Part shown: positions 1 through 9,653 of the stretch, piece after piece | Layout: each line of letters begins with the position of its first letter | Numbering within the stretch: position 1 is the first letter of the stretch | Assembly (NCBI RefSeq): GCF_027627575.1 | Contig: NZ_CP114065.1 | Location: 4,278,001 to 4,342,000 of the forward strand | Reading direction: 5' to 3' | Length of the DNA stretch: 64,000 nucleotides | Source of the DNA: Kribbella sp. CA-293567 | GTDB taxonomy: Bacteria > Actinomycetota > Actinomycetes > Propionibacteriales > Kribbellaceae | Program-made: the position numbers and the translations under genes | The notes under the pieces: model-generated | Told to the model about the DNA's origin: nothing | Seen by the model: the letters and a program-made list of their open reading frames with translations, nothing else | The model's database searches: none

Positions 1-573
1 TCGCTGGTGGCCCAGTCCCCCGGTCTACTCGGCATCGGCGTCGACGAGGACACCGCGGCCGTCGTCCGCGGCTCCCACCTGGAGGTCGTCGGCCGGGGTG
101 CCGTGACGATCTTCGACGGCAGCCGGATCACCTCCAACGCGCACTACGCGAGCCGGTCGGAGGCGATCCTCGCCTCCGGCGTCGTCCTGCACGTCCTGCC
201 CGCGACCGCGACCTTCGACCTCAAGGCCCGGGTGCTGCTGTCCTACGGTCCGCAGCCGCCGGCCGAGGAGATCGCCTCGATCGAGGCGGCCGAGGCCGAT
301 CTGCGCAAGCTGGCCAAGGAGATCGCCGCCGAGGGCGTGTCACCCGCGTACTACGCCGAGCGCAAGCGGCGGGCGGGCCGGCGTACGGCGAAGGCGGGTG
401 AACCGGGCAGCAAGACGGCGGCTCCGAGGAAGGCGGCCGTCAAGAAGGCCAGATCGTCGGCGGCGAGTCAGTCCAGACCGGAGGCGACCGAGCCTCTGAG
501 CGCGGGCGCCGAACTCAGCCGACCAGACACCGATGCCGCAACAGGGCCGCAACCAGACAGTGGGAACGCATGA
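1..573 (+). CDS. cphB: Cyanophycinase, C-terminal part (5' end outside window)
   Basis: This is the last 190 residues of a protein whose reading frame is open at base 1, so the true start lies upstream. The sequence (GLLGIGVDEDTAAVV, then GxGAVTIFDG) matches the C-terminal half of cyanophycinase, the serine-type exopeptidase that releases beta-Asp-Arg dipeptides from cyanophycin. The last ~75 residues form a Lys/Ala/Arg-rich, then polar, low-complexity tail that is unlikely to be part of the fold. The stop codon overlaps the cphA start (ATGA, 570-573), so the two genes are translationally coupled and form a polymer synthesis/degradation pair. The family assignment is strong because of the neighbour. 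The catalytic Ser is upstream and not visible. Confidence 0.88.
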   Translation, partial: SLVAQSPGLLGIGVDEDTAAVVRGSHLEVVGRGAVTIFDGSRITSNAHYASRSEAILASGVVLHVLPATATFDLKARVLLSYGPQPPAEEIASIEAAEADLRKLAKEIAAEGVSPAYYAERKRRAGRRTAKAGEPGSKTAAPRKAAVKKARSSAASQSRPEATEPLSAGAELSRPDTDAATGPQPDSGNA

Positions 574-3383
574 CGGACACCGCCCCCGACCAGACCCTCG
601 GAACTCCGAGCCCCGACCTGAAGATCATCGAGACCCGCGTCTACCGCGGGCCGAACATCTGGAGCTACGACCCGGCGATCCACCTGGTGGTCGACCTGGG
701 GTCGCTGGAGGAGTTCCCGTCGAACACCATCGACGGGTTCACCGAGCGGCTGCTGGAGCACCTGCCCCGCCTTGACCAGCACCACTGCTCCCGGGGCCGG
801 CGCGGCGGCTTCATCGAGCGGCTGCAGGAGGGCACCTGGCTCGGCCACATCGCCGAGCACGTCTCGCTGCAGCTGCAGCAGGAGGCCGGCCACGACATGC
901 GGCGCGGCAAGACCCGCCAGGTCAAGGGCGTGCCCGGCCGCTACAACATCATCTACTCGTACGCCGACGAGGGCGTCGGCCTGGCCGCCGGTGAGCTCGC
1001 GGTCCGGTTCGTCAACTATCTGGTCCAGCCGACGCCGGACTTCGACTTCACCACCGAGCTGGAGAAGTTCATCCGGCAGGCCGAGCGGAGCGCCTTCGGG
1101 CCGTCGACGCAGGCGATCGTGGACGAGGCGGTCTCCCGCGACATCCCGTGGATCCGGCTGAACAAGTTCAGCCTGGTGCAGCTCGGTCAGGGCGTGCACG
1201 CGAAGCGGATCCGGGCCACCATGACGTCGGAGACGGGTTCGATCGCGGTCGACGTGGCCGGCGACAAGGACCTCACCACCAAGCTGCTCGCGTCGGCCGG
1301 CCTGCCGGTCCCGCGGCAGGCGTCCGTGCGTGAGGTCGAGGACGCGGTCTCGGCCGCGAACAAGATCGGCTACCCGGTCGTCTGCAAGCCGCTCGACGGC
1401 AACCACGGCCGTGGCGTCTGCCTGAACCTGCAGGACGCGGACGCCGTCCGGGAGGCCTTCCCGATCGCCGCCGACCAGTCACGGCGCGGCTCGGTGATCG
1501 TGGAGAGCTTCGTCACCGGCAAGGACTACCGCTGCCTGATCATCAACGGCCGGATGGAGGCCATCGCCGAGCGGGTGCCGGCCCACGTGGTCGGCGACGG
1601 CGTGCACACGGTGGCCGAGCTGGTCGAGATCACCAACGCCGATCCGCGCCGCGGTGTCGGGCACGAGAAGATCCTGACCCGGATCACGGTGAACGCGGCC
1701 GCGCGGGAGCTGGTCCGGACCCAGGGCTTCGAGATGGACGACGTACCGCCCGAGGAAACGATGGTGAAGCTCACGCTCACCGGCAACATGTCCACCGGCG
1801 GGATCTCGATCGACCGCACCTTCGAGGCGCACCCGGAGAACGTCGAGATCGCCGAGGAGGCGGCCCGGATGATCGGGCTGGACATCGCCGGCATCGACTT
1901 CATCTGCCCCGACATCACCCAGCCGGTGCGCGAGACCGGTGGCGCGATCTGCGAGGTGAACGCGGCCCCGGGCTTCCGGATGCACACCAACCCGACGATC
2001 GGCGATCCGCAGTACATCGCCAAGCCGGTGGTCGACATGTTGTTCCCGCCCGGCGCGACCAGCCGGATCCCGATCATCGCGGTGACCGGGACCAACGGCA
2101 AGACCACCACCTCGCGGATGATCAGCCACGTCTTCAAGGGGATGGGCCGCAAGGTCGGGATGACCTCGACCGACGGCGTCGTGATCGACGAGCGGCTGGT
2201 GATCCGGTCGGACGCGTCCGGCCCGAAGTCCGCCCGGATGGTGCTGCAGAACCCGCGGGTCGACTTCGCCGTCTTCGAGGTGGCCCGCGGCGGCATCCTG
2301 CGCGAGGGCCTGGGGTACCAGCGCAACGACGTCGCGGTGGTGCTGAACATCCAGCCCGACCACCTCGGGATGCGCGGGATCGACACCCTCGAGCAGCTCG
2401 CCGACGTGAAGGGCGTGCTGGTCGAGGCCGTGCCGCGGAACGGCTTCGCGGTCCTGAACGCCGACGACCCGCTGGTCCGCAAGATGCGGCGGAAGTGTTC
2501 GGGCGAGGTGGTCTGGTTCAGCATCGCCGAGTCGGGCAGCGAGGTCCGCGAGTACATCGAGGGTCACTGCCGCCGGGGCGGCCGGGCGGTCGTGCTGGAG
2601 CGGTCCGACCTGGGCGACATGATCATCATGAAGCACGGCCGCCGCTCGATGCAGCTGGCCTGGACGCACCTGCTGCCGGCCACCTTCGGCGGCCGGGCGA
2701 TGATGAACGTGCAGAACGCGATGGCCGCCGCGGCCGCCGCCTTCGCCGCGGGCGCACCGCTGCACGACATCCGGCAGGGCCTGCGGACCTTCAACACCTC
2801 GTACTACCTGTCCCCCGGCCGGCTGAACGAGATCGACGTGCACGGCCGCACGGTGATCGTCGACTACTGCCACAACGCGCCGGCGATGCGGATGCTCGGT
2901 GACTTCGTCGACAAACTCGGCGAGAGCCTGAACGCGTCGTCCGAGCTCGGCCGGTCGTCGCGGATCGGCGTGATCGCGACCGCGGGTGACCGGCGCGACG
3001 ACGACATGCGGGAGCTGGGCGAGGTGGCCGCGCAGCACTTCGACGTGGTGATCGTCCGCGAGGACGCCCGGCTGCGGGGCCGCGAGCGCGGCAGCACGGC
3101 CGAGCTCGTCGCCGAGGGCGTCCGGACGGCGATGGAGAACGGCGCGCGCTGCCGGCAGGTGGAGATCGTGCTCGAGGAGCTGACCGCGGTCCAGCACGCG
3201 CTGGCCCGCTCGAACCGCGGCGACCTGGTGGTGCTCTGCGTCGACCAGCACCAGCAGGTGCTGTCCCACCTGGAGTCGGTATCGCACCTGGCCCAGGCCG
3301 GCGCCCGCTCCGGCGACGAGGGCGGCGACCCCGACTTCGTGAAGCCCGACGCCGAGCCGGAAGCTGACCAGTCAGCCGAATAG
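570..3383 (+). CDS. cphA: Cyanophycin synthetase
   Basis: A 937-residue protein, close to the usual CphA length of about 870-930. It makes cyanophycin (multi-L-arginyl-poly-L-aspartate) from Asp and Arg using ATP. The domains are in canonical order: an N-terminal domain (about 10-160), an ATP-grasp domain (about 210-480, with GYPVVCKPLDGNHGRGV), and a Mur-ligase domain whose P-loop VTGTNGKTTTSRM starts near residue 505, followed by the Mur C-terminal domain with DYCHNAPAM. Both active sites look intact, so this should be a full polymerase giving nitrogen/carbon storage granules in the cytoplasm. The start is fixed by the ATGA overlap with cyanophycinase. The C-terminus has an acidic tail. Confidence 0.96.
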   Translation: MTDTAPDQTLGTPSPDLKIIETRVYRGPNIWSYDPAIHLVVDLGSLEEFPSNTIDGFTERLLEHLPRLDQHHCSRGRRGGFIERLQEGTWLGHIAEHVSLQLQQEAGHDMRRGKTRQVKGVPGRYNIIYSYADEGVGLAAGELAVRFVNYLVQPTPDFDFTTELEKFIRQAERSAFGPSTQAIVDEAVSRDIPWIRLNKFSLVQLGQGVHAKRIRATMTSETGSIAVDVAGDKDLTTKLLASAGLPVPRQASVREVEDAVSAANKIGYPVVCKPLDGNHGRGVCLNLQDADAVREAFPIAADQSRRGSVIVESFVTGKDYRCLIINGRMEAIAERVPAHVVGDGVHTVAELVEITNADPRRGVGHEKILTRITVNAAARELVRTQGFEMDDVPPEETMVKLTLTGNMSTGGISIDRTFEAHPENVEIAEEAARMIGLDIAGIDFICPDITQPVRETGGAICEVNAAPGFRMHTNPTIGDPQYIAKPVVDMLFPPGATSRIPIIAVTGTNGKTTTSRMISHVFKGMGRKVGMTSTDGVVIDERLVIRSDASGPKSARMVLQNPRVDFAVFEVARGGILREGLGYQRNDVAVVLNIQPDHLGMRGIDTLEQLADVKGVLVEAVPRNGFAVLNADDPLVRKMRRKCSGEVVWFSIAESGSEVREYIEGHCRRGGRAVVLERSDLGDMIIMKHGRRSMQLAWTHLLPATFGGRAMMNVQNAMAAAAAAFAAGAPLHDIRQGLRTFNTSYYLSPGRLNEIDVHGRTVIVDYCHNAPAMRMLGDFVDKLGESLNASSELGRSSRIGVIATAGDRRDDDMRELGEVAAQHFDVVIVREDARLRGRERGSTAELVAEGVRTAMENGARCRQVEIVLEELTAVQHALARSNRGDLVVLCVDQHQQVLSHLESVSHLAQAGARSGDEGGDPDFVKPDAEPEADQSAE

Positions 3384-3457: not shown

Positions 3458-3991
3458 GTGAAGACGAAGCTGCTGCTGGCCGGTCTGGCCGTTGCCCTGC
3501 CCCTCCTGCTGAGTTCCTGCGGATCCTCCGGCCCCGAGGCACCGGCGGCGGAGGCGGCCGTCACGACACCGGGCGTGCTGGTCGAGGACGCCTGGGTGCG
3601 CGCGACGGTCGGTACCAAGAACGCCACGATGACGGCGGCCTTCATGTCGCTGACCAACCCCGGCAACGCCGACATCTCGTTGACCTCGGCAACCTCCCCG
3701 GTCGCCGGGATGGTGCAGCTGCACGAGATGACGATGAAGGACGGCAAGATGGTGATGCAGGAGAAGGCCGACGGCATCAAGGTGCCGGCCGAGTCGCACG
3801 CGCACCTGGCACCGAGCAAGGACCACGTGATGTTGATGGGGCTGAAGCAACAGCTCGAGCCGGGCGACGAGGTACCGCTCACCCTGAAGTTCTCCGACGG
3901 GAGCACGAAGGAGCTGACCGTCGCGGTGAAGCTGTTCACCGAGGAGGAAGAGCACTACCACCCGTCGGCCACACCCAGCACCACACCTTGA
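3458..3991 (+). CDS. Copper chaperone PCu(A)C-family lipoprotein
   Basis: A 177-residue exported protein starting at GTG. The N-terminus is a lipoprotein signal (MKTKLLLAGLAVALPLLLSSC, lipobox LLSSC with Cys21). The mature part is the DUF461/PCu(A)C fold, with metal ligands in the expected order: HEMTM, later MVM, then SHAHLAPSKDHVMLMGL. Proteins of this family carry Cu(I) outside the membrane, for example to cytochrome oxidase or secreted copper enzymes. The C-terminus ends in a His/Thr/Pro-rich tail (EEEEHYHP). The stop overlaps the TTG start of the Dyp peroxidase gene, so the two are coupled. A similar copper-chaperone/Dyp arrangement is known from Streptomyces (ECuC and DtpA); no Sco gene is seen here. 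Confidence 0.9.
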   Translation: MKTKLLLAGLAVALPLLLSSCGSSGPEAPAAEAAVTTPGVLVEDAWVRATVGTKNATMTAAFMSLTNPGNADISLTSATSPVAGMVQLHEMTMKDGKMVMQEKADGIKVPAESHAHLAPSKDHVMLMGLKQQLEPGDEVPLTLKFSDGSTKELTVAVKLFTEEEEHYHPSATPSTTP

Positions 3992-5160
3992 CCGGACGGC
4001 CGTCGCGGCGGCAGCTCTTCGGGTACGCCGGAGCTGCCGCGGCGGGCGCCGCCGTCACCGGTGGCGCCGTTGCCCTGAGCCACAACTCGGGTGCAGTCCC
4101 CACCCGTACGCCGCTCCCCCGCGACCTCAGCCCGTACGGCGAGCACCAGCCGGCCATCGCCGCGACCTCACCGAAGCACGCCGAGTTGGTCGCGCTCACG
4201 CTGCTGCCGTCGACCGGCAAGGCCGCGCTCGGCCGGCTGATGCGCCTCTGGACCAGCGACATCGTCGCCCTGGGATCGGGCCGGCCCGCACCCGGCGACA
4301 CGGCTCCCGAGCTCGCAGTTCCCGGGGTCGCTCTGACCGTGACAGTGGGTTTCGGCGCCAAGGTGTTCACTTTGCCCGGCCTCACCAGGCCGCGCGGGTT
4401 CAGCGACATCCCGGTGATGTCGCACGATCGCCTGCAACCCGGCTGGACCGGTGGCGATCTGCTGATCCTGGTGGGCGCCGACGACGCCGTGTCGGTGGTG
4501 CACGCGGTCCAGCGGCTGGTGGCGGATGCGGCGCCGTTCGCGAAGCCACTGTGGCGGCAGACCGGGTTCTGGAACGCGACCGCACCTGATGGTTCTCCGG
4601 TCACCGGGCGGAATCTCTTCAACCAGGTCGACGGCACCGGCAACCCCGCGCCCGGAACCCCGGAGTTCGACAGCACGGTCTGGGCGCCCGACGGCAGTAC
4701 GACGCTGGTCGTCCGGCGGATCAAGCTGAACCTGCAGACCTGGGACGAACTCACTCGCTCCGAGCAGGAGCGCTCGGTCGGCCGCAAGCTGTCCGACGGC
4801 GCCCCGCTGACCGGCACGGCCGAGCACGACGAACTCGATCTGGAGAAGCGCGACGCCGACGGCCGCCTGATGATCGCGGAGAACGCGCACGCGCGGCTGT
4901 CCCACCACTCGGTGAACGACGGCCGGCGGATCTTCCGCAAGGGCCTCAACTACGTCCACGACACCGGCGCCACCCGCGAGTCCGGCCTGATCTTCCTCAG
5001 CTACCAGGCAGACCTGGTCAGCCAGTTCCTGCCGATGCTCGCCCGGCTCGACGCGGCGGACGCCCTGAACGAGTGGACCACCACGATCGGCTCAGCCGCC
5101 TTCGTGATCCCGGCAGGATTCAGCGAAGGCGGCTGGCTCGGTCGAGCCCTGGTCGGTTAG
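3988..5160 (+). CDS. Dyp-type haem peroxidase, Tat-exported
   Basis: A 390-residue protein. I place the start at TTG 3988, which overlaps the preceding stop (TTGA) and puts a twin-arginine signal at the very N-terminus (SRRQLFGYAGAAAAGAA). The body matches the EfeB/DtpA branch of dye-decolourising peroxidases: NQVDGTGNP carries the distal Asp, AENAHARLSHHS carries the proximal haem His, and RRIFRKGLNY carries the conserved Arg. A folded haem protein exported by Tat fits the family. Being co-translated with a PCu(A)C chaperone suggests a role in extracellular copper handling or copper-oxidase maturation, by analogy with Streptomyces DtpA. The gene ends tail-to-tail with the next one, sharing bases of the stop codons. 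Confidence 0.92.
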   Translation: MTGRPSRRQLFGYAGAAAAGAAVTGGAVALSHNSGAVPTRTPLPRDLSPYGEHQPAIAATSPKHAELVALTLLPSTGKAALGRLMRLWTSDIVALGSGRPAPGDTAPELAVPGVALTVTVGFGAKVFTLPGLTRPRGFSDIPVMSHDRLQPGWTGGDLLILVGADDAVSVVHAVQRLVADAAPFAKPLWRQTGFWNATAPDGSPVTGRNLFNQVDGTGNPAPGTPEFDSTVWAPDGSTTLVVRRIKLNLQTWDELTRSEQERSVGRKLSDGAPLTGTAEHDELDLEKRDADGRLMIAENAHARLSHHSVNDGRRIFRKGLNYVHDTGATRESGLIFLSYQADLVSQFLPMLARLDAADALNEWTTTIGSAAFVIPAGFSEGGWLGRALVG

Positions 5161-5579: not shown

Positions 5580-6422
5580 TCACCGGCGCGCCGGGAGCAA
5601 CCGGCGCTTGGGCTCCTCGCGGTCGATCCAGTCCAGGTCGTCGGACAGGACGGCGTCGTTGCTGCGTCCGTCGTCGGCCCCGGGCGCCAACGGAGGCGGC
5701 GGTAGCGCGCGCACCTTCAGTGCCACCATCGGGATCGCCAGCAGGACGGCCAGCAGCAGCCACGGCCAGTACTCCCGCAGAAGCGGCTCGAAAGCGGCGA
5801 AGAAGGCGTCGGTGCCCGCGTCGGCAACCACGTCGATCGACTGGCCCTTGGCGGCGGCCACCGCCTGAATGCCGTCGACCATGGCGAACGAGGCCACGTA
5901 GAAGACCGACAACGGCAGCCACGAGTACGCCGATGGCCAGCCGCGCCGCCAGCAGGCGGCGTACAGGAGGGTGGTGAGGCCGATCGCGACCAGCAGGCCG
6001 TTCAGTTGCCACAACCAGAGCCAGTCCTGGAGCTCGTCGGCGGGGCGCAGAGCGAACCAGGCGACGGGCACCGACAACGCAAACGCCGCCAGCACCGTGT
6101 TACGGGTGCCCAGGGCACCGAGTCCCGCGCCGACGACACTTGCCACCAGCAACGACATCAGAAGTCCCTGGGCCGAAAGATCGTAGCCGCTCAGCCACCA
6201 GGAGCCGACAGCAACGATCAGCACCAGCGGTACGGCGTACCGAAGCCGGGCCACGATCAGCCCCGCCAGCACTCCGCCCGTGAAGCCGCCCAGGACGAGC
6301 AGGTCCAGCCGGGTTCCGACGAAGGTGGTCGAGCCGGCCGGCAGCCCGGTCAGATAGCTCGGCGCGAAGCCGGCCACGAACCAGGCGGCGACCGCCGCTG
6401 GTACCGACCACAAGTAACGCAT
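5580..6422 (-). CDS. Polytopic membrane protein of unknown function
   Basis: A 280-residue protein with about seven hydrophobic segments, the last near residues 220-240, followed by a charged cytoplasmic tail (DDLDWIDREEPKRRLLP). I do not recognise a family or any catalytic motif. It begins 40 bases downstream of the Mur-ligase gene on the same strand, with a hairpin in the gap, so it may be read at a reduced level from the fabG-fabI operon or have its own promoter. Confidence 0.7.
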   Translation of the reverse strand: MRYLWSVPAAVAAWFVAGFAPSYLTGLPAGSTTFVGTRLDLLVLGGFTGGVLAGLIVARLRYAVPLVLIVAVGSWWLSGYDLSAQGLLMSLLVASVVGAGLGALGTRNTVLAAFALSVPVAWFALRPADELQDWLWLWQLNGLLVAIGLTTLLYAACWRRGWPSAYSWLPLSVFYVASFAMVDGIQAVAAAKGQSIDVVADAGTDAFFAAFEPLLREYWPWLLLAVLLAIPMVALKVRALPPPPLAPGADDGRSNDAVLSDDLDWIDREEPKRRLLPARR

Positions 6423-6425
6423 GAC

Positions 6426-6464
6426 GATCCCCGATCCGCCCCGGGCGGCGGAAACCCGGGGATC
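6426..6464 (-). terminator. Hairpin between the Mur-ligase gene and the membrane protein gene
   Basis: GATCCCCG pairs with CGGGGATC, with a GC-rich inner palindrome (CCGCCCCGGGCGG) in the loop. It overlaps the Mur-ligase stop codon and could attenuate transcription into the next gene. Confidence 0.45.
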
Positions 6465-8148
6465 AGTGCTGTGCGCGTTCGACCTTCGCCTTCAAGGTCT
6501 CCGGGTCATCGACGGTAGCCCCCTCGGACCGCAACCAGGCGTCAAGACTCGCCCGATCCTGCAGAGACATCACCGCGACCACGTCACCGGCCCGGGCCTC
6601 GCCGACCAGCGCCTGCGCCGCCTCGAGCTCGGTCGGGAAGGACGGTACGTCCTCGACGCCGACCGAACCGGCGCCCTCCCGGAAGACCGCCTCCAGCTCC
6701 GACGGCGGCCGGCCGCGCAGGTACTCGCCCTTGTGCCCGATCACCACCCGGTCGGCGCCACGGGCACCGATCGCGCCCATCGCGGAGACCATCTCGTCGG
6801 ACCGGTCCCCCGGCGAACCCAGCGCCAGCAGCAGCCGCGCGCCGGGCATCCGGACGCCGTTCATGATCTCCAGCAGGGCTTCCAGGCCGGCCTCGTTGTG
6901 GGCGAGGTCGATCACCACGGTGAAGTCGCGGACGGAGTACATGTTCATCCGGCCCGGGTTGTTCTCCGACGGCGAGAACGTGCTCAGCCCCTCGATCACC
7001 GCGGCCCGCGGCAGCCCGAGCCCGAGCGCCGCCGAGGCGGCGGCGAGCGCGTTCTCCACGTTGTAGTGGGACAGCCCGGACAGCGTCATCGGGACGTCGA
7101 CGACCTTGAGCAGCGGCTCGGCGTCGCTGGCCTGATCGAGCACGGTGATGAACCCGTCCAGCACGGTGGTCGCCCGGCCGCCCTCGTCCAGCACGCTGCG
7201 GATCGACGGCGAGTCGGGATCGCGGGAGAACACCCAGCTCTTGGCCGGCGAGTCCAGCCGCATCGCGAAGGTCCGCGGGTCGTCGCCGTTCACCACGCAC
7301 CAGCCGCGCGGCCGGGTGATCTTGGTGATCACGGCCTTCACCTCGGCCAGCTGGTCGACGGTGTCGATCCCGCCCAGGCCCAGGTGGTCGGCGGTGACGT
7401 TGGTGACGACCGAGACGTCGTTGTAGGCGACGCCGACGCCGCGCCGCAGGATGCCGCCGCGGGCCGTCTCGGTGACGGCCAGCTGCACTCCGGGCTGCGA
7501 CAGCACCTGGCCGGCGCCGCTCGGGCCGGAGAAGTCGCCGTACTCGACCAGCTTGCCGTCGAAGTACACGCCGTCGGTGCTCGACCAGCCGGTGTGCAGG
7601 CCTGCTGCCCGGCCGATGTGCGCGATCATCCGCGAGGTGGTGGTCTTGCCGTTCGTGCCGGTGACGGCGACGACGGGGATCTTCGGGCGCAGCGTCGGCG
7701 GCGCGTTACCGGCCGGCTCGTTGCGGACCCGGTCCCCGACGCTCGTCACCAGTTCAGGCAGCTCGTCGGCGCCGAAGGCGTCGACCACCTCGACGATCGC
7801 CATCGCGAGCGCGCGGGCGCGGCCCTCGTGCGCCCACGGGAACGCCACCACCAGCCGGTGCACGTCGTTCTCGGAGCGGACCCGGACGCCGATCCGCCCG
7901 ATCCCTGCCTCGCGGGCGATCCGACGCAGAATGTGCCCGACCACCCGGACCGCGAACCGCTGCCGGAAGCCGGAGCCGATCCGCCCGGGCCGGGTCGCGC
8001 CGAGCCCGAGTGCCTGCGCGTACGCCTTCGCGGCCGGAGCCGGCGCGTCGATCAGGGCCGACAGGTCGAGCGTGAGCTTGATCGCTGCCCGGCTGAAGTA
8101 CAGGTTGGCCCCGTCCAGGACGCGGAGCTCTACCAAGGAGGTGGACAC
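6463..8148 (-). CDS. Mur-ligase family protein, CphA-like without ATP-grasp
   Basis: A 561-residue protein. Residues 1-150 resemble the N-terminal domain of cyanophycin synthetases (VELRVLDGANLYFS). Residues about 160-440 form a Mur-ligase ATPase domain with VTGTNGKTTTSRM, STDGV, TARGGILRRG and NVTADHLGLGGIDT, closely parallel to the same segments in the cphA of this window. The C-terminal part has VIDLAHNEAG. The ATP-grasp domain that sits between these parts in CphA is missing, yet the protein is uninterrupted and all Mur motifs are kept. It should therefore catalyse one ATP-dependent amide ligation; the substrate is unknown. The GTG start overlaps the fabI stop by one base. Confidence 0.85.
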   Translation of the reverse strand: MSTSLVELRVLDGANLYFSRAAIKLTLDLSALIDAPAPAAKAYAQALGLGATRPGRIGSGFRQRFAVRVVGHILRRIAREAGIGRIGVRVRSENDVHRLVVAFPWAHEGRARALAMAIVEVVDAFGADELPELVTSVGDRVRNEPAGNAPPTLRPKIPVVAVTGTNGKTTTSRMIAHIGRAAGLHTGWSSTDGVYFDGKLVEYGDFSGPSGAGQVLSQPGVQLAVTETARGGILRRGVGVAYNDVSVVTNVTADHLGLGGIDTVDQLAEVKAVITKITRPRGWCVVNGDDPRTFAMRLDSPAKSWVFSRDPDSPSIRSVLDEGGRATTVLDGFITVLDQASDAEPLLKVVDVPMTLSGLSHYNVENALAAASAALGLGLPRAAVIEGLSTFSPSENNPGRMNMYSVRDFTVVIDLAHNEAGLEALLEIMNGVRMPGARLLLALGSPGDRSDEMVSAMGAIGARGADRVVIGHKGEYLRGRPPSELEAVFREGAGSVGVEDVPSFPTELEAAQALVGEARAGDVVAVMSLQDRASLDAWLRSEGATVDDPETLKAKVERAQH

Positions 8149-8924
8149 TAGGCACCCATCGCGTGAAAGCCGCCGTCGACGTGGATGATCTCGCCGGTGG
8201 TGGAGGGGAAGAAGTCACTGAGCAGGGCGACGATCGTCTTGCCGGTCGGCTCGAGGTCGGACGGGTCCCAGCCCAGCGGGGCCTGGTCCAGCCACGGTCC
8301 CTCGAACTTCTCGAAGCCCGGGATCGCCTTCGCGGCCAGCGTCTTCAGCGGACCGGCGGAGACCAGGTTGCAGCGGATCCCCTGCGCGCCCAGGTCACGC
8401 GCCAGATAGCGCGAGGTCGACTCCAGGGCCGCCTTCGCGACCCCCATCCAGTCGTACCCCGGCCAGGCCACGCTGGCGTCGAAGGTCAGCCCGACGATGC
8501 TGCCGCCCCGGCTCATCAGCGGCGCGCAGGTCACCGCCAGCGACTTCAGGCTGTACGCCGAGACGTGCACCGCGCGGGACACGTCGTCCCACGGGCCGTC
8601 CAGGAACTTGCCGCCGAGGATCGTCTCCGGGTTGCCGTAGGCGATCGAGTGCACGACGCCGTCGAGACCGTCGACGTGCTCGCGGATCGCGGCCGGCAAC
8701 GCGGCCAGGTGATCCTCGTCGGTGACGTCGAGCTCGATCACCGGCGGCGTCACCGGCAGCCGGCCGGCGATCCGCCGGGTGATGCTCAGCGCCCGGCCGA
8801 AGTTCGAGATCAGTACCGTGGCGCCTTGTTCCTGCGCCACCTTGGCGGTCGCGAAGCCGATCGAGGAGTCGAGCGTCACGCCCGCGACCAGGATCCGCTT
8901 GCCGTCGAGGATGCCCACCGGCAT
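8148..8924 (-). CDS. fabI: Enoyl-[acyl-carrier-protein] reductase (NADH), FabI/InhA type
   Basis: A 258-residue SDR-fold enzyme for the last reduction of each fatty acid elongation cycle in FAS II. Hallmarks are the FabI-style cofactor loop ILVAGVTLDSSIGFATA, the HSIAYGNPE segment, and the catalytic Tyr-x6-Lys (YDWMGVAK), followed by the SAGPLKTLAAKAIPGF substrate loop. ATG 8924 is used; GTG six bases downstream has the better-spaced ribosome site (AAAGGG) and is a possible alternative. It lies 24 bases after fabG and overlaps the Mur-ligase gene, so it is the middle gene of a three-gene operon. Confidence 0.95.
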   Translation of the reverse strand: MPVGILDGKRILVAGVTLDSSIGFATAKVAQEQGATVLISNFGRALSITRRIAGRLPVTPPVIELDVTDEDHLAALPAAIREHVDGLDGVVHSIAYGNPETILGGKFLDGPWDDVSRAVHVSAYSLKSLAVTCAPLMSRGGSIVGLTFDASVAWPGYDWMGVAKAALESTSRYLARDLGAQGIRCNLVSAGPLKTLAAKAIPGFEKFEGPWLDQAPLGWDPSDLEPTGKTIVALLSDFFPSTTGEIIHVDGGFHAMGA

Positions 8925-8948: not shown

Positions 8949-9653
8949 TCAGTGGCCCATGCCGATGCCGCCGTCGACCGGGATCACGGCGCCGGTGATG
9001 TAGGCGGCTTCGTCGGAGGAGATCCAGCGGACGGCCTGGGCGATCTCCTCGGTCCGGCCGAACCGGCCGAGCGGGATCTGGCCCAGGTACTGCTTCTGGG
9101 TCTCCTCCGGCAGCACGGCGGTCATGTCGGTCTCGACGAACCCCGGTGCCACCACGTTGGTGGTGATGCCCCGGCTGCCGAGCTCGCGCGCCATCGACCG
9201 GGCCATCCCGATCAGTCCGGACTTGCTGGCGGCGTAGTTCACCTGGCCGGGCGAACCGAGCAGACCGACCACCGAGGAGATGAAGACGATCCGGCCCCGG
9301 CGCAGCCGCAGCATGCCCTTGGCCGCGCGCTTGGCGACCCGGAACGAGCCGGTCAGGTTGGTCTGGATGACCGCGTCCCAGTCGTCGTCGGACATCCGCA
9401 GCAGCAGCGTGTCGCGGGTGATGCCGGCGTTGGCGATCAGTACCTCGACCGGGCCGTGCTCGGCCGCGATGGTGTCGAACGCGGCGTCGACCTGCTCGGC
9501 GTCGGTGACGTCGCACTTGACGCCGAGGAAACCTTCCGGCGGCTCACCGCTACGGTAGGTGACCGCGACCTGGTCGCCGGCCTCCCGGAAAGCGGTCGCG
9601 ATAGCCAGCCCGATGCCCCGGTTGCCGCCGGTGACCAGTACCGATCTCGCCAC
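8949..9653 (-). CDS. fabG: 3-oxoacyl-[acyl-carrier-protein] reductase
   Basis: A 234-residue classical SDR that reduces 3-oxoacyl-ACP with NADPH in FAS II. It shows TGGNRGIG (cofactor), NAG(I) at about residue 77, the active-site Ser (ISSVVG), YAASK, and PGFVETDM. It starts at GTG 9653 behind a strong ribosome site (GAGGAGA). It forms an operon with fabI in the fabG-inhA order typical of mycobacteria and relatives. Confidence 0.94.
   Translation of the reverse strand: MARSVLVTGGNRGIGLAIATAFREAGDQVAVTYRSGEPPEGFLGVKCDVTDAEQVDAAFDTIAAEHGPVEVLIANAGITRDTLLLRMSDDDWDAVIQTNLTGSFRVAKRAAKGMLRLRRGRIVFISSVVGLLGSPGQVNYAASKSGLIGMARSMARELGSRGITTNVVAPGFVETDMTAVLPEETQKQYLGQIPLGRFGRTEEIAQAVRWISSDEAAYITGAVIPVDGGIGMGH

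Follow-up and report, generated by a model that had tools for sequence, protein, structure and literature searches.

Gene content of the cyanophycin locus

The window, i.e., the whole 64,000-nucleotide stretch of the Kribbella sp. CA-293567 genome analyzed here, carries a cyanophycin locus (Table 1), in which the 3' part of cphB (its frame continues upstream of the window edge, as read in L123, the window's copy in our set of loci) is followed by a complete cphA gene. Convergent with cphA is a gene with a GTG start codon, named SHORT in this work, whose product consists of an N domain and a Mur domain. Upstream of SHORT, on the same strand, lie fabI- and fabG-type genes, and the stop codon TAG of fabI overlaps the start codon of SHORT as TAGTG.

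Table 1. Genes and protein features of the cyanophycin locus (positions as in the window; residue numbers refer to SHORT)
Feature	Position	Strand	Basis
cphB (cyanophycinase), 3' part, entering from before the window	1..573	+	TIGR02069, partial match of 48.6 bits, below the cut-off of 126.6
cphA (cyanophycin synthetase, complete, 937 aa), convergent with SHORT	570..3383	+	TIGR02068, 1167.9 bits (cut-off 850)
SHORT, N-domain and Mur-domain protein, 561 aa	6463..8148	-	ORF list, Pfam, Ka/Ks
CphA-type Mur ligase domain, residues 154-528	6565..7689	-	NCBIfam TIGR02068, Pfam
Loop GHKGEYLRGR, residues 471-480	6709..6738	-	Alignment with CphA: one-residue insertion, Y-L-R-G-R in place of D..-RGR
P-loop TGTNGKTTT, residues 163-171	7636..7662	-	Conserved columns
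CphA-type N domain, residues 3-127, without Cx19HxxEH	7768..8142	-	hhalign, motif count
fabI-type enoyl-ACP reductase, upstream of SHORT	8148..8924	-	NF005908, 416 bits (cut-off 299)
fabG-type 3-oxoacyl-ACP reductase	8949..9653	-	TIGR01830, 306.3 bits (cut-off 297.75)

A gene located downstream of SHORT (5580-6422, minus strand) encodes a 280-aa protein, membrane-like by eye and matching no family, which was found in the same place in all 21 named Kribbella-type loci and was unmatched at non-Kribbella loci. The region between this gene and cphA (3458-5160, plus strand) contains ORFs resembling, by eye, a copper chaperone (PCuAC) and a Dyp-type peroxidase.

Domain composition and predicted fold of SHORT

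The Pfam scan of SHORT revealed Mur_ligase_M at residues 162-374 (69.3 bits, cut-off 24) and Mur_ligase_C at residues 399-527 (56.6 bits, cut-off 28.4), and with both domains above their curated cut-offs the protein belongs to the Mur ligase superfamily. It gave no ATP-grasp match; for the CphA protein of the window, the same scan returned several ATP-grasp models besides the N domain and the two Mur models. The best match of residues 154-528 was with the Mur portion of the CphA model TIGR02068, the Mur parts of SHORT and the window CphA share 36% identity over 408 columns, and the cyanophycin synthases present in PDB match SHORT with E-values from 9e-74 to 6e-71. The first 127 residues matched no Pfam model of their own, PF18921 included. 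When residues 3-127 were compared with CphA N domains profile to profile (hhalign), the probability was 93 (E-value 3.3e-7, 124 columns), and only 0.11 in the reversed control.

The AlphaFold2 model of SHORT was of middling quality (pLDDT 77.5, pTM 0.56). Its residues 3-543 align with residues 1-877 of the TeCphA1 chain 7wae_A (Z 46.4, 519 residues), superposing on the N domain and the M domain of CphA and not on ATP-grasp; because three of the 15 alignment rows behind the model were CphA sequences, it is not fully independent of this answer. The sequence-only reading, according to which the N domain is joined directly to the Mur domain, is thus borne out by Pfam, hhalign and the structure model alike.

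In 21 pairs of seven Kribbella-type sequences, the Ka/Ks ratio of SHORT ranged from 0.07 to 0.19, and the gene is under purifying selection within Kribbella. The protein search with SHORT yielded 22 loci, i.e., 20 of Kribbella, one labelled Streptomyces sp. SID13031, and one of a Pseudoxanthomonas CphA. It is also worth mentioning that the SHORT proteins of six loci (L102, L105-L108, and L110) have a C-terminal extension of about 150-170 aa, with TPR_5 detected in that of L106, the sole one scanned, and that in two single-contig genomes (L116 and L117) a frame change, reflecting either sequencing error or decay, splits SHORT next to an intact cphA.

Co-occurrence of SHORT and cphA

In the class sample (394 genomes), 30 genomes carried SHORT together with cphA, none SHORT alone, seven cphA alone, and 357 neither. 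Within the phylum sample (396 genomes), 24 carriers of SHORT were found, of which 23 had a CphA-type match, while the 24th (G765) has a piece of cphA at a contig end, on the same contig as SHORT; no genome had CphA alone. Both sets of counts rest on three candidates per genome, scored after a loose first look, and the two samples have four carriers in common (G000, G048, G081, and G128). The link of SHORT with cyanophycin is supported by these samples, with cphA in 30/30 class and 24/24 phylum carriers.

The order sample (196 genomes) gave a match in 79 genomes. SHORT was present in 77 of them, each time with at least one further match; G420 showed cphA alone, on a contig ending where SHORT would be expected (and no FabI match), and G520 a single weak match. 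Of the 46 genomes of genus g3 with FabI, 15 lacked any match, and in the other 31 SHORT was accompanied by one or more further matches. Fisher tests of the SHORT-cphA co-occurrence were extreme, with kinship ignored. On the FabG+FabI tree of 44 order genomes, five changes of state were forced by starred branches and nine were needed on the best tree; one state was used for both genes, as they agree in those genomes, so this count concerns gain and loss and leaves the pairing itself outside its scope, five pairs being too few to reach 0.05 in the pairing test. As the two genes are neighbours, their joint loss may be the loss of a block.

Conservation of the gene neighbourhood

Among the class loci, cphA was located 3' of SHORT and convergent with it in 34 of 37, and the contigs of the remaining three end 0.1-2.2 kb past SHORT. 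At the loci of other classes the same was observed in 14 of 19, the remaining five contigs ending 2.1-6.7 kb past SHORT. In one locus where cphA is present (L112), the SHORT and cphA matches overlap by two bases.

The distribution of the fatty acid genes is different. Within the class, 35 of the 37 loci have a co-oriented fabI upstream of SHORT (once 4.6 kb away), the two exceptions being L101, whose genome (G237) has no FabI match anywhere, and L102, with fabG only; in the named Kribbella-type loci, the convergent cphA and the upstream fabI were both present in 21/21. In other classes fabG-fabI was found at 0/19 SHORT loci, 14 of which had more than 2 kb of 5' sequence. Moreover, FabI was detected in 168 of the 196 order genomes, that is in 76 of the 77 with SHORT and in 92 of the 119 without it. 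In 20 SHORT-free order genomes, neither SHORT nor cphA nor cphB was found near fabG-fabI in the 18-19 kb taken; that fabG and fabI stood together, or nearly so, in all 20 loci is by choice, since these genomes were picked for FabI, and the figure free of this bias is the 92 of 119 given above. The absence of fabG-fabI outside the class, where cphA is kept, indicates that cphA is the old neighbour of SHORT and fabG-fabI an acquired neighbour in one class.

These data bear on the possibility that SHORT is a fatty acid-related ligase with an acyl or ACP acceptor, which had been suggested from its apparent coupling to FAS II genes. The same-strand fabI upstream of SHORT and the TAGTG overlap speak for such a role, and the placing of SHORT in a fabG-fabI operon holds for the window; phylum-wide, however, the partner is cphA. 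Given the lack of fabG-fabI at all 19 other-class loci, the presence of FabI without SHORT in 15 of the 46 genus g3 genomes, and the SHORT-bearing genome G237 with no FabI match, this explanation is close to refuted, and a functional link to FAS II was rejected.

Amongst the 45 largest families of neighbouring genes, only SHORT, cphA and cphB (with ORFs in their other frames) recurred in both groups of loci, apart from two families that each had just one member from another class. A family of M20 peptidases, distinguished by clustering, occurs near SHORT in eight of the 19 other-class loci; the three members scanned (PF01546; L179:7039-8235, L180:7504-8715, and L184:5133-6335) are located upstream of SHORT and divergent from it. 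The M20 peptidase is a candidate beta-Asp-Arg dipeptidase.

Phylogeny and relatives in other phyla

The trees were built for 70 and 56 rows, both hand-picked subsets of 119 rows plus 10 more. SHORT forms one old clade of its own (starred branches, 97 and 99), and the idea that it is a recent truncation of the neighbouring CphA was rejected on this ground. Six Mur rows (weak SHORT matches of the phylum search, taken as MurE-like) were split from the SHORT/CphA side by a starred branch of 100, which agrees with the earlier assignment of SHORT to the CphA rather than the MurE side. The AU test rejected none of the three placements of SHORT, i.e., with actinobacterial CphA (p 0.46), with cyanobacterial CphA (p 0.462), or with family f19 (p 0.621), the last of which fits even better than the free tree. 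Hence SHORT may either derive from a CphA that lost its ATP-grasp domain or descend from an ancestor composed of N and Mur domains.

In the plasmid search with SHORT, none of the 22 matching records covered 80% of the query. The search with a Shinella "Mur ligase family protein" gave four records covering at least 80%, from Shinella zoogloeoides, Roseateles sp. XES5 and two Ruegeria, the Roseateles and Shinella proteins sharing 93.7% identity. All four records with a full-length relative, which make up two pairs of close relatives, show the row cphB-cphA-Mur ligase on one strand. These proteobacterial proteins (578-601 aa) form one clade with SHORT (starred branch, 98). The domain scan, performed for the Shinella protein, showed Mur domains and no ATP-grasp match, and the N part of the proteobacterial relative matched SHORT with a probability of 41 over 45 columns and CphA with one of 2.6. 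All four share with SHORT the Y-L-R-G-R loop, Gly 211, Arg 236 and Arg 276, and have no Asp at the second acid site described below. We therefore group them with SHORT as cphA-linked Mur-only ligases, a grouping made here and marked by the common clade, the loop insertion Y-L-R-G-R, Gly 211 and Arg/Lys 276, all of which were found. Upstream of cphB in the Ruegeria loci (L200 and L201) there are saccharopine dehydrogenase-like and aldehyde dehydrogenase genes.

CphA-like proteins with a lost or sub-threshold ATP-grasp part were also found at Deinococcus plasmid loci (L195, L196, and L198). The D. deserti "Mur ligase family protein" has an N domain and Mur domains with no ATP-grasp match, while the CphA-like proteins of D. 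taeanensis and Deinococcus KNUC1210 gave ATP-grasp matches below cut-off only; in KNUC1210, the Mur ligase is split into two ORFs and comes last in a row, after cphA and the genes for an isoaspartyl peptidase and a cyanophycinase, in this order. As the Deinococcus pair in the tree branches with Deinococcus CphA (starred branch, 99), the loss of ATP-grasp there was separate from that of SHORT.

ATP-binding and substrate-site residues

For the comparison of conserved columns, the split SHORT of L116 and L117 were left out, and of Kribbella only L002, L005 and L123 (the copy of the window) were retained. One further Kribbella sequence was kept for the residue counts and trees, from which the SHORT fragments L191-L193 and the row L188, mislabelled as CphA, were omitted; a length filter removed another five mislabelled rows.

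Eight residues around ATP in the Mur site of TeCphA1 are named in PMC9427784. Seven of them (N497, K499, T500, T522, E558, R731, and H748 in TeCphA1 numbering) are identical in 51/51 SHORT and 61/61 CphA proteins, including N166, K168 and T169 of the SHORT P-loop, and the eighth, F692, is variable in SHORT and CphA alike. The ATP chemistry of the Mur site thus looks intact. This conservation bears on the idea that SHORT is a non-catalytic partner or regulator, e.g., a hetero-oligomer subunit of CphA. Both of its domains are shared with CphA, it is always accompanied by cphA, and some members carry a TPR-type C-terminal extension, as such a role would have it; a non-enzyme, however, would be free to lose the seven residues kept in 51/51, and we regard a purely non-catalytic function as quite improbable.

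Two acidic positions presumably facing the substrate differ between the proteins. According to PMC9262961, the side chain of E607 in Su CphA contacts the bound cyanophycin. This position is Glu in 61/61 CphA proteins and Arg or Lys in 44/51 SHORT proteins (SHORT position 276). At the second site, an Asp (window-CphA 832) is present in 59/61 CphA proteins and unconserved in SHORT; this Asp stands where MurE has its DNPR motif. The loop of SHORT is one residue longer here, with Y476 in 51/51, Glu as residue 474 in 21/51, and Leu in place of Lys 473 in 13/51; of the two RGR arginines, one is present in all 51 proteins and the other in 49. Thus, the Mur motifs, reported earlier as parallel to those of cphA, are indeed present, and fixed differences occur at likely substrate positions. 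Since charge shifts between CphA and SHORT occur in either direction (with the cut-offs used, an acid is lost in 12 columns and gained in five, and a base is lost in 15 and gained in six), the argument against arginine is carried by the E607 and Asp-832 sites alone. E607 may serve just the N-domain site absent from SHORT; CphA proteins without the N-domain primer site (Ab, Tm, and L118) still keep Glu at this position.

The latter site, the primer-making zinc site Cx19HxxEH, is described as the primer-cutting motif of CphA in PMC9262961. It was found in 62/64 CphA and 0/55 SHORT proteins (L116 and L117 omitted); three of the 19 other-class SHORT in this count are fragments that lack the N domain, so that 0/16 is the fair figure there. 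One could suppose that SHORT makes the short chains from which CphA starts, as some CphA enzymes depend on primers (PMC9262961) and three proteobacterial CphA proteins encoded beside a relative of SHORT keep HxxEH without the Cx19 spacing. On the other side, the motif is complete in 62 of the 64 CphA proteins (22 of them Kribbella-type, some from SHORT-free genomes), the two lacking it (L022 and L118) have no SHORT within the stretch taken, and building the backbone needs an ATP-grasp part, which SHORT does not have. Primer synthesis is accordingly very unlikely.

Proposed function of SHORT

CphA uses its ATP-grasp site to add Asp and its Mur site to add Arg, and holds the polymer between the N domain and the Mur core (PMC9427784). 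By analogy with CphA, SHORT would activate a carboxylate as an acyl phosphate and join it to an amine, and the acceptor would be a cyanophycin chain end or fragment held between the N domain and the Mur core. Lacking ATP-grasp, SHORT cannot lengthen the chain by the route of CphA. The amino acid that it adds is, judging more weakly from the two CphA acids lost, probably other than arginine, because neither the Glu of E607 nor Asp-832 is kept; SHORT might then cap or modify the polymer or one of its fragments. We tentatively propose that SHORT is an ATP-dependent Mur-type amide ligase serving cyanophycin metabolism and probably not adding arginine, and it appears to be an old helper enzyme of this pathway. 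A more specific version, in which a stand-alone Mur enzyme provides a third cyanophycin ligase activity in actinobacteria and some proteobacteria, attaching a non-arginine residue and leaving the polymer capped or mixed, is possible but doubtful. Other side chains are on record, as PMC8560796 cites glutamic acid replacing arginine in a cyanobacterium.

The addition of one basic residue, as originally suggested, is weakened by the same positions. Under this explanation SHORT would form or salvage beta-Asp-Arg units by attaching Arg or Lys to the beta-carboxylate of Asp, the acceptor being a small molecule or a short chain. This is what CphA does at its Mur site, the N and Mur domains flanking the polymer are both kept, and so are the two RGR arginines. 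Against it, 44/51 SHORT proteins have Arg or Lys where Arg-adding Mur sites have an invariant Glu, the Asp is unconserved, and all four proteobacterial relatives carry Arg at the first position and lack Asp at the other. We consider this explanation unlikely.

The genes for dipeptide degradation were searched for in 18 genomes, 14 of them bearing SHORT and cphA. IaaA (PF01112) was found in one of these 14 and IadA (TIGR01975) above cut-off in none, with weak TIGR01975 matches in 10/14; dipeptide handling may therefore differ in SHORT-bearing genomes, which would suit an enzyme salvaging beta-Asp-Arg. PF04952 was matched in 0/14 SHORT genomes and 1/14 control genomes, a weak search given that the model is a 76-position domain matching just one control. 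PMC10206079 reports IadA and/or IaaA in all 35 cphA-bearing Actinomycetota of its set, and the conflict with our result may lie in thresholds.

CphA is taken to make cyanophycin alone. Should SHORT be the ligase that we propose, a dedicated second ligase that accompanies cphA across the sampled phylum and is encoded behind cphB-cphA in proteobacteria would alter the pathway as well as the polymer composition to be expected. SHORT is an example of the Mur half of CphA occurring on its own, would offer a small enzyme for producing cyanophycin variants, and marks the Glu of E607 and Asp-832 as candidates for arginine or polymer recognition.

Comparison with known cyanophycin and Mur ligases

No description of the SHORT family was found in the open-access literature, most subscription papers lying outside that search. 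Two divergent sequences named MurE and MurF and counted as CphA (PMC11915815) and adjacent "CphA1" and "CphA2" genes in Sideroxydans (PMC5178258) may or may not be of the SHORT type. Fuser and Steinbuchel 2007 on groups of cyanophycin ligases, to which PMC3646047 points, may have listed such proteins.

With CphA1, SHORT has in common the N domain, the Mur domain and the seven named ATP residues of the Mur site; it differs in having neither ATP-grasp nor Cx19HxxEH and in forming its own clade, and its score with the CphA1 model TIGR02068 (377.7 bits) is under the cut-off of 850. CphA2 of cyanobacteria is, like SHORT, a CphA relative with just one ligase site in use. The single active site of CphA2 is the ATP-grasp one, and SHORT, with the Mur site only and without the ATP-grasp part that defines CphA2, is its mirror image. 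CphA2 polymerises beta-Asp-Arg with a single site (PMC10206079).

The proteobacterial relatives, unlike SHORT, are encoded co-directionally behind cphA, and their N part matches weakly. The Deinococcus "Mur ligase family protein" resembles SHORT in being CphA-like with Arg at the E607 site, whereas it represents a separate lineage with Deinococcus CphA. Finally, MurE and the pseudomurein ligases share the Mur fold and motifs with SHORT and have no CphA N domain. SHORT scored under the cut-off of every listed model of these ligases (105 bits with the MurE model TIGR01085, cut-off 257.3) and lies outside the MurE-like rows (starred branch, 100). SHORT is thus a member of the Mur ligase superfamily that departs from the defining features of CphA1, CphA2 and MurE.
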